A DNA stretch of 64,000 nt. Origin: Microbotryum silenes-acaulis (taxonomy: Eukaryota > Basidiomycota > Microbotryomycetes > Microbotryales > Microbotryaceae). Below the pieces are notes generated by a model that had not been told where the DNA came from, made no database searches, and saw only the letters and a program-made list of their open reading frames with translations. A program made the position numbers and the translations under genes. Of this stretch, positions 48,453 to 59,891 are shown in pieces. The stretch is taken from positions 372,001 through 436,000 of the forward strand of contig QPFY01000020.1 of NCBI GenBank assembly GCA_003665825.1. The letters are read 5' to 3'. Within the stretch, counting starts at the first letter, position 1. Each line of letters starts with the position of its first letter.

Positions 48453-51372
48453 ATGAGCAACTTTAGATACGCTCCAGCTCCGAGCGTCGATACACAGCGC
48501 GCGCGACCAACGACGACCTTTCGATCTGCTGCCGCTGTATTAGCTGCCGAGGCTGCGAACCGGCGAGCGAGCGGGTCCTCGAGCAACGCTGCGAAGAGGC
48601 TTCGTGATCTTCCTCCGACATCAACATCTGCAGCTCAAAAGGGACATCAAAATCAACAAGCGATCACGATACTGTCGGATGACGATGATGACGACGAAGA
48701 GGATACACTAGACGAGGAGATGGAGGAGATTGGCGCCCCACCTCGCGCCTTGCTGGACCCGTCGAGCATCGGGGTAGTACAGGGGCATCCAATTGGGAAC
48801 GATCAGGATGACGGTGACGAAGAAGAAGCTGTAAAGAAGGTACGCTATATTCTCATGCACCCTTCACATGATCAGGTTCCGCGCGTGCCCAGTGGCTCAC
48901 CATCAGCTACGTCACTCTGGCGCAGCTCGAAGACGAACTTGAATCGATCGATTCGCAGTTGAACAAGCTCAAGGAGCTACGTAGGGTCATCCAACGCGAT
49001 CACGACGCTCTAAGACGCAAACTCGACGCCAAGAAGACCCAAATCTCGTCGGACTCGAATGGCGACACCGTGCAAAATCGCCAACTCGGTCGTGAAGCCG
49101 GCGTGACCGACTACACGCGTTCCGATTTCGAATGGTCCAAGCAGATTCGAGTCACCGCGAGACAAGTTTTTGGCATCGATAGCTTTCGACATTCACAAGA
49201 AGCTGTCATCAATGCTGGATTTGCGGGGCGCGACATTGTTTGCATCATGCCGACCGGTGGTGGCAAGTCTTTGACGTACCAGCTGCCGGCGATCATGGCC
49301 AGTCGAGGAACGACGGTCGTCATCACCCCTCTCATCAGTCTCATGGACGACCAATGCTTCAACTTGCGCGAGCTCAGTGTCAACGCCGAGATGCTTAACG
49401 CTTCGACGACGAGCGAGGACCAGCGATGGATCATGAAGCGACTCGTTGGCAACAGTCAGGCTGCCTCGACTAACAAGAAGGGCAAGGCTAAAGCGGAACT
49501 TCAAGATTCTGAGCTCAAGGAAAAGGACCTCATCAAGCTCGTTTACGTCACGCCCGAACGCATCGACAAGTCCAAGACGTTCGTCAACACTCTGTCCAAG
49601 ATGTACGATGCTGGGTTAATCGTCCGCTTCGTTATCGACGAAGCGCATTGTGTCTCGACGATGGGGATGGACTATCGACCGTCGTATTTGGCGCTCAAGC
49701 GTCTCAAGGCCCTGTTCCCTACGACCCCGATCACAGCGACGACGGCGACTGCTCCCGCACATGTCGTTGCGGATATGATCAAGACCCTCACACTTCCTTC
49801 CCGAACCAGCCCCGGTAATGCCGCTCAACCGAACACGACCGTGATGTTCACATCGCCGTTGTTCCGACCGAATCTGCGCTTCAGTGTGGTGCCCAAGCCC
49901 CCATCGGCCGCGGCCCAGACTCAAGCGATCGTCGACGAGATCCTGACGTCACATTCCAACGATATTGGTATCGTCTACTGCCTCTCGCGCAACGACACCG
50001 AGAACGTGACCAAGGCGCTCCACGATCTGAGCAAAGGTCAGATCCGCGCCGCGATCTACCATGCCGGCTTGGACGATGGCGAAAAGTTAAGGGTCTATGA
50101 TCGATGGCGCAAGGGCCAGATCAAAGTAGTCGTCGCGACGAGTGCGTCCTTCGGTCTCGGAATCGATAACCCTTCCGTTCGTTTCGTCATTCATCATTCA
50201 CCACCCAAGTCGATGAGCTCGTTATCGCAAGAAGCGGGGAGGGCAGGCAGGGACGGGAATTCCGCAGATTGCATTTTGTTTTGGCGAGCTGCGGACGCTT
50301 CGAGGTTGTCGACCTTGATCGTCGACGAGTTTCGAAGTGGAGGCAAAGAACGATTGTACGAAATGATTCAGTACGCGGAAGACCTCAAGACCTGTCGCAA
50401 GCTCGCGTTCGCCAAGAGCTTTGATGGTGGTGCTCAGGCGTCGAACAAGACGGCCGCTCGATTCGATGAAGGTCCAGATGCCGATCGCCCGTGTGGCAAT
50501 TGTGACAACGTGAGTCAGGCCGAATCTTGCAGTTAGTGTACGAAATGACCAATGACTCTATCATAACATCGCAGTGTCTCCGCGATCCATCTACCGTCGA
50601 ATCCGTCGACGTCTCGTTGGAAGCCTATCGTGCACTGCGAATCATGTCCGCCGCCGATGCCTCAAGTGGGACCCTGACCCTTACCCAGGCCTGCGATCTT
50701 GTCCGAGGTCTTGGGAAAGGTGCGATCACGACGACGTCGAACGATACAAGGGGTAAAGTCAACAAGGGCAAAACTAATATTGATGTCGATAGCGTTGCGG
50801 GGGGAAAGGTTGGGCTCAACAAGGATCAGACGGAACAATTGTTGGTTAGGTTAATGATCGAGGGGTATTTGTCGGAGCATTTTCATACGAGTGAGTGGTA
50901 TCGCAAAGCTGGTCGTAGGGGAAGACGAGCTGACTTGTTGTTTTCGTGTACCGTCACCACTGCAGCTGGTTACACCACGACTTCGTACCTGCGTCCTCGA
51001 CCCTTGGCGACGAGATTCACACGGTTCACGCCCCAGCAGATCTCGCAGTCCCAAGGTGAAGATTTGCCTATCAGCATCGTTCTTGAGTTGCGCAAAGATG
51101 GCAAGAAGAGAACTTCAACCAGTAAGGGCGGGAAGAGGAAATCAGGCCCATCATCGACGGCGGCCGCGAAGAAGCTCAAGAAATCGGGTATCGAGACGAT
51201 AGAGCTAAAAGACGATGATGAGGACGAAGAGGGTGAAGGAGGAGATGACGACGATGACGACGATCCCGAGCTTGAACCGGCCGTCAGTTGTTCCCGAGAG
51301 GAGCCGGATGATGACGAGTTGGAAGCCGCGACCGATGCCGATGGGTGGCAAGTTTGGTCCTCTGCATCATAG
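48453..51372 (+). CDS. RecQ-family DNA helicase, RECQL1 type
   Basis: 3'-5' DNA helicase in genome maintenance. An acidic N-terminus (ITILSDDDDDDEE) and a coiled-coil (LAQLEDELESIDSQLNKLKE) precede the core, as in RECQL1. Motifs: FRHSQEAVINAGFAGRDIVC (motif 0), MPTGGGKSLTYQLPA (Walker A), TPLISLMDDQ, VIDEAHCVS (Walker B), TATTATAPAHVV (III), YCLSRNDTENV (IV), SFGLGIDNPSVRFVIHHSPP (V) and SQEAGRAGRDGNSADCIL (VI). Zinc-binding region: LKTCRKLAFA .. PCGNCDN|CLRDP. A winged-helix part and an acidic, Lys-rich tail follow; no HRDC seen. The loop after DEAH reads CVSTMGMDYRPSY instead of the usual SQWGHDFRP. Four exons. Confidence 0.93.
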
Positions 51373-51497: not shown

Positions 51498-54723
<3,226 letters not shown>

Positions 54724-54852
54724 TCTGATCGACGACTGCAAGGCGAGATAAGGTGAAGAAGAAGGCGAGCCCAAGAGACGAGATGATGATCCAAGAAGGC
54801 AGCGCGTGCGGCGTATCGCGGTGGAGGCGAACTGGAACGAGGACGTCGTCGT
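54724..54852 (-). CDS. ALA1: probable non-ATG-initiated mitochondrial leader of ALA1
   Basis: In frame with ALA1 and free of stops back to a TAG at 54916-54918. From three adjacent ACG codons (54844-54852) it encodes [20 protein letters not shown] and then [23 protein letters not shown] before the Met: five Arg, no Asp or Glu, rich in Ser/Leu/Ala, as expected of a presequence. No ATG occurs in this frame between the stop and the annotated start. Yeast ALA1 is known to make its mitochondrial isoform from upstream ACG codons. Functional use here is inference. Confidence 0.6.
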
Positions 54853-55216
54853 GGAGATGGAGCGGGAGCAGCAGCGGTGCCTCTTTCCTTTGGGTGGGGG
54901 GAGCAGCAGAAGAGCCTAGTCCAGTATAGACTCCAGTCCGAGCGCAGACCGAGTCAAAAGAAAATCGCCCAGCGCATCGATCGCTAATAATGCGCTAATA
55001 CGACCCGCGTCTATAGAGCAAGCAGCATTTACGGATTAGATCGCCCGCGTCCGTGCACTTTTTGTCCTGATCACTGGCGACGACGACCCCGACCACTCGA
55101 GCGCGAGCTGGTTTCCGACACGTCATCTCGTGTTCCGGCCCGTTGCGCACCTCTTGTCGTTCCTGGCGTTCGACATAGACGAGCTAGGTCGACTCAAAGA
55201 ACGGCCTACGACCACG

Positions 55217-57691
55217 ATGGTCAGTCTACTCGCCTCGTCACGGGCTGCGCGGTGGTGGTGGCCGCGGTTGCTGCTGTGCACTTTCGCCACTTCGACCGTG
55301 ATTCTGGTCGTCAACGCGCTCTCGGCCCTCGATCGACCTCGCTCCGGCTTCTTAGAGAACGTGTTGGAATCAAAAGACGTCGATCAAAAGTATTGCAAGG
55401 TAGGTTGCGTGTGATGCCCCAAGTTCCCCCCGCTGTCCGACCCCTCTCAAGCGGCTGACCCGCACACACACGCGCCGCGTCGCGCCTCGCTTCCTCTCGC
55501 AGCCTTCTGGCTTGATCGACGATGCATGCTGTGATTTCGAAACGGTCGAATCCGTCAACGACGACCTGTACAGCAGTCTACACGATATCGTATCCACACC
55601 TTATTTCCGCTACCACAAAGTACGTTCCCAGCTCTTGCTCTGATTAGTCAGCTCCGTCCCTCGGCTCGAGACGATCGCTGACCCCCCCATGACTCTCTCC
55701 CCTATTCCCACCGTCGATCATCGTCCGTCTTGGCAACGACGATAGGTCGATCTTTATCGGGAATGCCCGTTTTGGCAAGAGGATGGCAGTTGTATGAACA
55801 GGGCCTGCGGTGTAGAGACAACAGACGAGGTACGTGGCATCCCATCCCACTCGTGGAACGACCAACCCACGTGACCATCGCACTCCGGTTGTCGTGGCCG
55901 ACCCCTCGGCTCGGGACTTTCTCAAACAAGCTGAACCCATGCGAGGATCCTCTGCAGCCCAACATTCCAGAAAAGTGGAAACCATCAAAACTCGGCGCGT
56001 TGAGATTGAACGCATCATCTCCTGTACGTCGCCTTCATCGTTCGATATATCCCCCATCTCTGACCCCACGTTCGCTCGGCTTCCGCTCAACCCACAGGCC
56101 TCGGTCGAAGGAGGTTCCCTCGTCAAGGAATCCGACTTCTGCGTTCTCGAGGATGAATTCGATTCAGGTGTGTTCCCCGAATCGGTCCCGTCCCAAATTA
56201 AAAGATGAGACCGACGAGCTCACTTTTTATTTTATTTTATCTCGGTCCCTACAGAAGGCGTCTACGTCGATCTACTCGACAATCCCGAGCGTTTCACAGG
56301 ATACGCCGGCCCTTCTTCTTCCCGCGTTTGGAAAGCGATCTACGAAGAAAATTGCTTCACGCCCGTTACTTTCATAGACCCTTCCCGACCCGAATCAGAA
56401 GGAGGGTCGGGCTTTGCCTCTCTTTCCTCCACTTCTTTACAAGCAGGGGCAATGATGGGCTTACCTAGTCTGTCGATGGGTTCGAGTGGCGGTGGTGGAT
56501 GGGGAGAGAATGAGAAAAAGTTTTTTGGGTCGTTGGCGGGTCCCAGAGATGGCGGTGATGAGACATGTTTGGAGAAGAGGGTATTTTATAGGGTCATTTC
56601 AGGTAAGTTGACCCGCCGTTGAAGTGCCTTCCTTAGACTGTCGATCCTTGCGTCGTACTCATCTGTTCGGGTTCCTTACAGGTCTTCATGCCTCGATCTC
56701 GATTCATATCTGCGATGATTATCTCGATAAATCAACCGGCCAATGGGTAAGTCGAAGCACTGAACCCCTCTCCCTTCCCCTACCCCGTACTCACTCCTTC
56801 CCAATCCCCTCCCCAGGCCCCCAATTTACAATGTTTCGTCACCCGCATCGCTCAACATCCCGAACGACTTCAAAACGTTTACTTCACCTACGTCCTCTTA
56901 CTGCGCGCCCTCTCTAAATCGGGACCTTTCCTCTTGGACACTTTGAAGAATACGGAGGCTGAACCGGCTACGATCGGTAGGATGAAGGGTTTGATCAAGA
57001 GTGCGACGGGTTGTCCGACTACGTTCGATGAAGGTTCGATGTTTACGGGTGTAGAGGCGGAGGTTAGTTTACGAGCGGTGTTTTTTTTTCGATTCGATCG
57101 CAGAAAGGGGAACCGGACTGATTTGATTTTTTTTTTTGATTTTTTCTTCTTTTGTCGCTGGGGATTGGATCACGTCGAACTTATAAGGTACTCAAAAGTG
57201 AATTCAAAGCTCACTTCCGTAACGTTTCCCGAATTATGGATTGCGTAGGCTGCGACAAGTGTCGTCTCTGGGGTAAACTTCAAATCACCGGTTTGGGAAC
57301 GGCGTTAAAACTCCTCTTTTCAGCCCAAGAACTAACAACAACAACAACCACAACGAACCAAGTCGATCTTTCGAGGAGTGAGGTCGTAGCGTTTGTGAAT
57401 ACTTTGCATCGGTTGAGTGAGAGTTTGGCGGCGGTGGAGAAGTTTAGAGGGTTGTGGAATGAGAGGAGTTTCGAGGAGCGGGAAAGGGTCGAGAAGAGGG
57501 CGGAGGAGGGGAAACAGGAGGAGGAAAAGGGGGTGAAAGGGGGGGTAAAAGGGGTGGGGAGAGGGAAGGGACAGGTTAAGGAAGGGAAGGAGGATGTACG
57601 GATAGAAAAAGAGTTGGAGGAGAGGGAGGAGGTCAAACCGGTTTCGAAGAAGGAGGAAACGAGGAGGTCGGCGGGTAAAAGCGAGTTATAG
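55217..57691 (+). CDS. ERO1: ER oxidoreductin 1 (ERO1)
   Basis: FAD thiol oxidase that reoxidises protein disulfide isomerase in the ER lumen. Signal-anchor start [32 protein letters not shown]. Exons: [171 protein letters not shown]. The active site [20 protein letters not shown] (CxxCxxC) is intact. The C-terminus is Glu/Lys-rich, ending GKSEL, a possible HDEL-like remnant but not a canonical retention signal. About ten exons. Confidence 0.95.
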
Positions 57692-57924: not shown

Positions 57925-59891
57925 TCATACCATCCAAGGTCCCATAACCCTAACCGACGTCGCGCCCTGACTCAACAACTTGTGATGCACCAAATTCAAC
58001 GCCTTGACCGCATCCCTGCCATCGATCACACTCGAAATATTGATCTCACTCGCGCCCTGCGAGATCATCTCGATATTGATATTCCCCTCCGCCAAAGTAG
58101 TGAACATTTTCCCTGCGATACCGACCATGTTCTTCATATGCTTGCCTACAAGGGAGAGGATGCACATATCCCGATTGACGATAACCTCCCCCACGACTTT
58201 CAACTCCTTCGTCATGCGATCCAAAACCGGTCCTCGGATCGATCCGTTGATCGCCATGGAGACGTGCACTTCGGACGTGGAGATCAAATCGACAATCACA
58301 CCGTACTTGTCCAAGGTCCCAAAGATCCTCGCGAAGAAACCGTGCGAGATCGTTTTTCGATTCGATCGGATCGATAAAACGAGAATATCATCCTTGATCG
58401 TGATCGCCGTAGGACCCCTACGAGGAGGGATTACGAGAGGTGAAGTAGGCGTCGTCGTGGTGAAAGCGGTCGAAGGATCTTCCAAATCGGATCCTTCATC
58501 CGAATTCGTCGAGTTCAAATCGGGGAAGATGATCGTCCCTGATCCCGAAGGGTTTTCGACGTTCTTGATTCGGATAGGAATCGAAGCTCGGATGACTTGT
58601 TCCATGGTGAAGGGGTGGATGACTTCGGATCCATAGTAGGTCAATTCAGCGGCTTCTTCTGGCGTAATCGTCGAGAGTAGTCGCGCCGTGGGTACTTTCC
58701 TAGGATCCGCGGTAAAGATGCCGTCGACTTCTTTCCATACTTGAAGTTCGGACGCGCCCACACCGACAGCGCAAAGCGCGGCACAGAGATCGGAATACCC
58801 TCGACCGACTTGGGCCAACAAGGAACCGGGGACGACACCGAAGAAGCCCGTGACGACGGGGACTCGATCACCGCATTCGTTCAGTCGTTCGCCCAGGCGT
58901 TTCGAAAGGCGGTCGTAGAACGGCTGACTGAGTTGTTTCGACTCCCCCTTGGCTTCTTCATCGTCCTGTGCCGAACCTTCAACGATATTCTCCAACGAAA
59001 CCAGTTCGGCCTCTACACCTCGATCATTGAGCACGGCGACCACAATGCGACACGACAACCTCTCCCCGACGCCCATGATGATATCCTTGCTCCTTGAAGA
59101 AATCTCATCAATGATCTGAGCGGCAAGGAGGAAACTCCTCAACCTCTCGCAATCATAATCGAGATCATCCTCGAGCTCGGCCAAGATTTGCGGATCCTTG
59201 ACGAAACTCCGTGCGGCCTTAAAGTGGTCTTCTTTGATCTGGTCGACCGTACCGTGGAACAATTGAGGTCCTTCGTCGATATCGCGAACGCGTAGAGAAG
59301 AGATCGAAGCGGCCAGGGAATTGGACCGTGTCGAATGGGGTGTCGAGACACCCGACCGGGTATGGGTGTTGTTTTTCGAAGCAGGTGAGGGACTAACGGC
59401 GTTCGAAGAACTTCTTTGAAAGATCTGGGACGTCAAAGGGTTGATACGATCCGAGGAAGCGACGCCCGGTGTGCCCGGTGTCGGTGTAGGAGGGAGAGAA
59501 GGGATCGAGGAAGACATGTCCGGTGCTCGTGGTCGAAGCGCTTCCAACGCTGCTCGGAGGAGGAGGTTCGTCGTTCCCGTCGATTTGGATTCACCCGATC
59601 GTGCAGAACAGACGACGGCGACTCGGTTTCCGGATTCGATGTAGGATCTGTAAAACGTCGAAACGGCCCAGAGGTGAGCTCAGCACGATCAGCTCGCGGA
59701 GGAGAGATCCGGGTCTGGCACAGTCCGAGCACTTACGGGATGATCTGCATCGTGATGTTATCGATGAACTTGCCCAAACTGGTACCACCATACTTTTGGA
59801 TGACCCAGGGTTTATCGACGAGATTACGCAGCTTGGGCTTGGGTGACGACGACGAGGACTGAGGAGGGGGTAAAGTCGAGGTTGACGCCAT
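57925..59891 (-). CDS. HOM3: aspartokinase (HOM3)
   Basis: First step from aspartate to threonine, methionine and homoserine. Two exons: MASTSTLPPPQSSSSSPKPK, WVIQKYGGTSLGKFIDNITM-QII, then YIESGNRVAVVCSARSGESK, RLSCRIVVAVLNDRGVEAEL, VPVVTGFFGVVPGSLLAQVG-RGYSDLCAAL, EVDGIFTADPRKVPTARLLS and ELTYYGSEVIHPFTMEQVIR. Two C-terminal ACT segments (ISHGFFARIFGTLDKYGVIV, ISRGASEINISSVID-type) imply feedback regulation by threonine. Ends MGPWMV. The single intron falls after IIP, in the N-terminal 60 residues. A Ser/Thr-rich insert lies after the ARSGESK motif, as in yeast. Confidence 0.95.

Follow-up and report, generated by a model that had tools for sequence, protein, structure and literature searches.

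The closest described precedent for the locus analysed here is alanyl-tRNA synthetase (AlaRS) of Saccharomyces cerevisiae, for which the accessible part of the source reports that the mitochondrial form of ALA1 starts at ACG(-25)/ACG(-24), that two consecutive ACGs are stronger than one, and that non-AUG starts depend above all on the base at -3 (PMC2909995). According to the same text, ALA1 translation can begin at most near-cognate codons, and a downstream TTG serves as a remedial start when the ACG is mutated (PMC2909995). As far as the accessible text of Wallace et al. goes, near-cognate dual starts of AlaRS occur in S. cerevisiae, Schizosaccharomyces pombe and Candida albicans, AlaRS in Cryptococcus and Neurospora crassa uses a weak upstream AUG, and LeuRS and ArgRS of Cryptococcus have near-cognate starts; the surveyed fungi are reported to have, as a rule, one dual-targeted AlaRS, with a duplicated case in Vanderwaltozyma polyspora, and the authors conclude that weak AUG and near-cognate starts have been exchanged several times (PMC7049704). 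A literature search, lying mostly outside subscription papers, found nothing published on AlaRS initiation in Microbotryum or in its class.

The AlaRS gene of Microbotryum silenes-acaulis lies in the 64,000-nucleotide stretch of DNA analysed here (the window), and its features are collected in the table below. It resembles ALA1 of S. cerevisiae in the enzyme, the single gene, the tandem in-frame ACGs, the ATG-free extension and the downstream cytosolic ATG. It differs in having three ACGs, not two, at 41-43 codons upstream instead of 24-25, and in belonging to another phylum; moreover, initiation is proven in yeast, whereas in Microbotryum it is predicted. LeuRS (adjacent ACG-AUU) and ArgRS (cccaccAUU) of Cryptococcus are likewise products of single basidiomycete genes with a near-cognate codon before a predicted presequence, although AlaRS of Cryptococcus itself, unlike that of Microbotryum, has a weak upstream AUG. 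The AlaRS proteins of the Basidiomycota Tilletia indica (P0088) and Gloeophyllum (P0057) also carry a basic extension before the conserved cytosolic Met, 48 residues long in P0088 and thus near the 43 of Microbotryum; however, these presequences start with Met and not at an ACG. We consider it probable that one gene with two starts supplies both compartments, the ACG cluster giving the mitochondrial AlaRS and the ATG at 54723 the cytosolic enzyme.

Features of the AlaRS locus (positions in the window; codons numbered from the cytosolic ATG)
Feature	Position	Strand	Remark
AlaRS gene	54723-51498	minus	six exons
In-frame TAG	54916..54918	minus	closes the upstream frame
Stop-free frame without ATG, preceding the cytosolic ATG	54724..54915	minus	64 codons
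CTG CTG, codons -62/-61	54904..54909	minus	rival near-cognate starts; C at -3
ACG ACG ACG, codons -43/-42/-41	54844..54852	minus	proposed mitochondrial start (predicted initiation)
Proposed mitochondrial presequence	54724..54852	minus	43 codons
ATA, codon -31	54814..54816	minus	possible secondary near-cognate start; G at -3
Cytosolic ATG	54721..54723	minus	context ATCAGA-ATG-A (A at -3); start of annotated Microbotryum protein P0001
Exon 1 (cytosolic coding part)	54569..54723	minus	
Exon 2	54381..54496	minus	
Exon 3	54228..54310	minus	
Exon 4	53964..54153	minus	
Exon 5	53354..53898	minus	
Exon 6 with stop	51498..53273	minus	581 of 591 residues identical to M. silenes-dioicae P0001

The identity of the gene is clear from its catalytic, editing and DHHA1 domains (Pfam PF01411, PF07973 and PF02272) and from a protein search, in which P0001 of Microbotryum silenes-dioicae matches with 99% identity over 96% of the query. 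The earlier note, made from the letters of the window alone, had described a frame open from the TAG to the cytosolic ATG with no in-frame ATG, three tandem ACG codons, and a peptide after them with five Arg and no acidic residue. All of this holds: the 64 codons are open, no ATG occurs in the open leader in any frame, the ACG codons begin at 54852, 54849 and 54846, and the 43-residue extension contains 5 Arg, 12 Ser and 6 Leu but neither Lys nor Asp/Glu, and has a hydrophobic moment of 0.491. The base at -3 is T for ACG(-43) and A for both ACG(-42) and ACG(-41), because the preceding ACG provides it; the latter two thus have the purine that favours near-cognate initiation. Further near-cognate codons in the frame are ATC at -45 and TTG at -17 and -6, and a purine at -3 is found among all of those in the leader only for ACG(-42), ACG(-41), ATA(-31) and TTG(-6).

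The genome bears on the need for a mitochondrial form. Searches with PF01411, TIGR00344 and P0001 found one AlaRS locus in the 29.85 Mb assembly, and no second, mitochondrial AlaRS gene was found there by Pfam, NCBIfam or protein search. The earlier note had taken the window's only AlaRS to serve both compartments and had named a search for a second gene as a check; singleness extends from the window to the whole assembly, and besides the one AlaRS gene the search returned an AlaX-like editing protein encoded elsewhere. The latter (G000:C8:120004-121073, minus strand; L007, L023) matches only the editing and C-terminal part of AlaRS and appears to be a free-standing alanyl-tRNA editing protein with weak partial matches, AlaXM being among its best families and all scores lying below the family cut-offs. 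The assembly can reveal separate mitochondrial enzymes, and does so for IleRS, where one is to be expected: in a PF00133 search, two loci are best matched by IleRS, on C12 and C20. The N-terminus of the C12 copy is ATG-started, basic and presequence-like, whereas in the C20 copy a stop lies 22 codons upstream of the presumed ATG, a start chosen by us. Rhodotorula belongs to the same class as Microbotryum. Its species Rhodotorula taiwanensis has a mitochondrial genome for which the accessible part of the source gives 23 tRNA genes with all 20 amino acids represented (PMC3633354), so AlaRS is needed in mitochondria.

The leader itself was compared with 20,000 dinucleotide shuffles of its 192 nt. 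The 64-codon frame stays open in 40% of shuffles and the last 43 codons in 53%, and in the real 129 nt none of the three sense frames is interrupted; frame +1 would even encode 9 Arg with a hydrophobic moment of 0.527 (against 0.491), though with one acidic residue. Taken singly, the Arg count is average (P 0.51) and the lack of acidic residues has P 0.11, and Arg, acid and hydrophobic moment are matched jointly by 1.5% of the 7,985 open Met-free shuffles; when the 129 nt are shuffled alone and net charge is used, 2.5% of open shuffles match the real leader. The peptide, which had been called a typical presequence, keeps its five Arg, its lack of acid and its moment of 0.49 as a candidate presequence, but 1.5% of open Met-free shuffles do as well. 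The ACG run counts for less because such triples are common here: ACGACGACG occurs 17 times on both strands of the window where shuffles give 1.27; at the window rate, the probability of an in-frame ACGACGACG somewhere in 62 codon positions is roughly 0.8%. The tripled codons ACG, TCG, CGA and GAC each have 17-19 copies across the whole window. GC by codon position is 0.40, 0.70 and 0.65 in the extension versus 0.59, 0.39 and 0.69 in exon 6, and GC3 of the extension falls from 0.94 over its first 18 codons to 0.44 over the remainder; this is not coding-like, and is either uninformative or mildly unfavourable. The open frame and composition are near chance, and the leader by itself is weak evidence. 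A helping hairpin downstream of the ACGs was also considered and dropped, since the leader folds worse than 192 of 200 shuffles (z +1.89).

These figures give some room to the idea that the frame is a chance opening in a pyrimidine-rich 5' UTR, with AlaRS imported through a weak internal signal or the mitochondrial gene missing from the assembly. The frequent openness of shuffles and the three open sense frames fit this, the completeness of the assembly is not stated, and no match to COX1 was found in it, which indicates that the mitochondrial DNA is absent. However, a single dual-targeted AlaRS is the rule in the surveyed fungi, at least in the accessible text (PMC7049704), and the first 15 residues of the AUG-started AlaRS include none that is basic; we regard this explanation as unlikely. 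Similarly improbable is that near-cognate initiation uses this frame but chiefly a codon other than the ACGs (CTG -62/-61, ATC -45, ATA -31 or TTG -17), the ACG run being incidental. Such codons do occur in the frame, and the breadth of starts accepted by yeast ALA1, including its remedial TTG, lends them some credit within what the accessible text reports (PMC2909995); yet the base at -3 is a pyrimidine (C or T) for CTG, ATC and TTG(-17), and TTG(-6), despite its purine, is too close to the ATG to encode a presequence.

An AUG might instead be supplied before the presequence by an unseen upstream exon or by alternative splicing, which the earlier note had raised against its own reading. Under the loosest rule (any GT, any AG), 32 in-frame, stop-free joins of an upstream ATG can be drawn. 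The five real introns are 65-80 nt long, with donors of the form GTNNG(T/C) and acceptors CAG or TAG, and only 2 of the 32 joins keep that donor form. One of them (ATG 55176, donor 55150, restart 54880) would place MSNARNDKR before the whole presequence, but this would take an intron of 270 nt whose acceptor, GAG, follows purine-rich sequence; the other, with a 426 nt intron, yields MSNARNDKR alone and no presequence. CTRAY was found within 55 nt of the acceptor in 0 of the 32 joins, although this branch-site test is weak because the motif is present in just 2 of 5 real introns. Enumeration thus leaves no well-formed join and one poor one. In addition, an ATG on the plus strand at 55217, 494 nt upstream of the AlaRS ATG, suggests a divergent neighbour gene, possibly sharing the intergenic region with AlaRS, which would leave little room for further AlaRS exons. 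An upstream exon is, in our judgement, very unlikely.

Initiation at the ACG cluster can also be viewed against the N-termini of related proteins. Among the best 120 full-length protein matches, we distinguished 17 anchored Microbotryomycete proteins (P0016 being placed there by similarity) from 102 others, with the partial P0018 left uncounted. All 17 Microbotryomycete proteins start at the cytosolic Met, while the 102 others comprise at least 21 with an AUG-started, basic, acid-free extension, 2 with another extension and 79 with none. The contrast in AUG-started presequences (0 of 17 versus 21 of 102; Fisher P 0.04) might suggest a clade-wide loss of the AUG, but we set this aside as weak, since 79 of the 102 others also lack an extension and annotation may miss starts. 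The 195 partial matches (P0121-P0315) include 53 with an AUG-started basic extension, 35 with another extension, 105 with none and 2 unanchored. Six of them, all exon-1 ORFs, are Microbotryomycete-like by our judgement of the sequence; 4 start at the cytosolic Met, and the other two, P0143 and P0239, run upstream of it with acidic far ends. Both show a Met-free basic stretch that begins near a Thr-Thr located 28 and 45 residues, respectively, upstream of that Met, as read from protein records only, which agrees with the proposed reading. At the DNA level, no fungal locus stood among the best 80 of the 574 relatives from genome contigs, whose titles are bacterial throughout, and a scan of viral contigs found no relative.

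Other synthetases of the same genome show two kinds of leader among the seven surveyed, which appear single-copy (the N-termini of Thr, Lys, Pro and Trp synthetases lie outside the survey; LeuRS is single by the PF00133 search only, which also gave one weak match on C1 without firm assignment). In HisRS, CysRS and GlyRS, an in-frame ATG lies upstream at -29, -33 and -64, its -3 base being C, T and T respectively, and in all three a basic, presequence-like stretch follows this weak ATG and precedes a cytosolic ATG whose -3 base is A; GlyRS carries another in-frame ATG at -105, likewise preceded by A at -3. The upstream frames of AlaRS, ArgRS and LeuRS stay open for 64, 75 and 59 codons, and these stretches lack ATG in every frame; in ValRS the nearest upstream ATG stands at -116, beyond 115 codons without one; all four have a basic upstream frame before a cytosolic ATG with a purine at -3. 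That position is A or G in 7 of 7 synthetases. In a shuffle test of charge, acid and moment over the last 43 codons, P is 0.015 for Ala, 0.105 for Arg, 0.046 for Leu and 0.060 for Val, compared with 0.021 for Cys, <0.001 for His and 0.038 for Gly, and 0.18 for cytosolic IleRS, where the stretch is not open. Taken together, the leaders form a consistent pattern, but each is weak by itself, ArgRS most of all.

Individual leaders offer candidates of their own. In LeuRS (G000:C3, upstream of 1798297, minus strand; L130), for which PF00133 found just a locus of the archaeal/eukaryotic type, the 59 ATG-free codons include CCCACC-ATT at -56, the context published for ArgRS of Cryptococcus, and ArgRS of Microbotryum is also ATG-free upstream. 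The ArgRS leader (G000:C18, upstream of 194451, minus strand; L138) has GTG(-67), ATC(-50), TTG(-42) and ACG(-23) as candidates. ValRS (G000:C2, upstream of 486895, minus strand; L114) has a basic stretch ...VARVLVSNSVRLLIHRPPF...RRYLCSTSSVRRSSASA before MASTDP, with a purine at -3 of both GTG(-49) and TTG(-45).

For AlaRS, we propose the following. A transcript that begins upstream of 54852 would carry the leader, and scanning ribosomes would sometimes initiate at the tandem ACGs, each of which may help the next by giving it an A at -3, with ACG read as Met. The product would bear an N-terminal presequence of about 43 residues, to be imported into mitochondria and cleaved. Most ribosomes would pass the ACGs by leaky scanning and start at the strong ATG at 54723, thus producing the cytosolic enzyme. 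We infer the transcript start, the ACG initiation, the import and the cleavage of the long form from the genomic arrangement. The claim of the earlier note that this fungus uses the trick of yeast ALA1 is partly supported: the single gene, the want of a well-formed ATG exon and the parallel anatomy of the sister synthetases fit it, but the leader is near chance, and the genomic logic is stronger evidence than the leader alone.

The same note had held dual initiation to be ancient or repeatedly evolved. The findings lean to "repeatedly", as AUG and near-cognate starts are mixed among fungi and at least 21 of the 102 other matches have an apparent presequence that begins with Met; this is not new, since the exchange is already stated in the accessible text of PMC7049704. 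A wider reading, which we offer tentatively and hold at somewhat below even chances, is that in Microbotryum, and perhaps in Microbotryomycetes, the mitochondrial Ala, Val, Leu and Arg synthetases all arise from non-AUG starts, those of LeuRS and ArgRS being ancestral to basidiomycetes and the upstream AUG of AlaRS and ValRS having been lost later in this lineage. If so, at least four non-AUG synthetases in Microbotryum would be twice the known two of Cryptococcus. On the main reading, tandem-ACG initiation of mitochondrial AlaRS would reach from ascomycete yeasts to a basidiomycete, with the ACG cluster arrived at separately, which would suggest repeated switching between AUG and near-cognate starts within a single gene. 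Such N-termini would form a class that gene annotation overlooks; annotated P0001 begins at the cytosolic ATG.

Elsewhere in the window, positions 57925-59517 on the minus strand encode an aspartokinase-like amino-acid kinase with ACT domains, and positions 49247-50536 on the plus strand part of a RecQ-type DEAD helicase with a RecQ zinc-binding domain.
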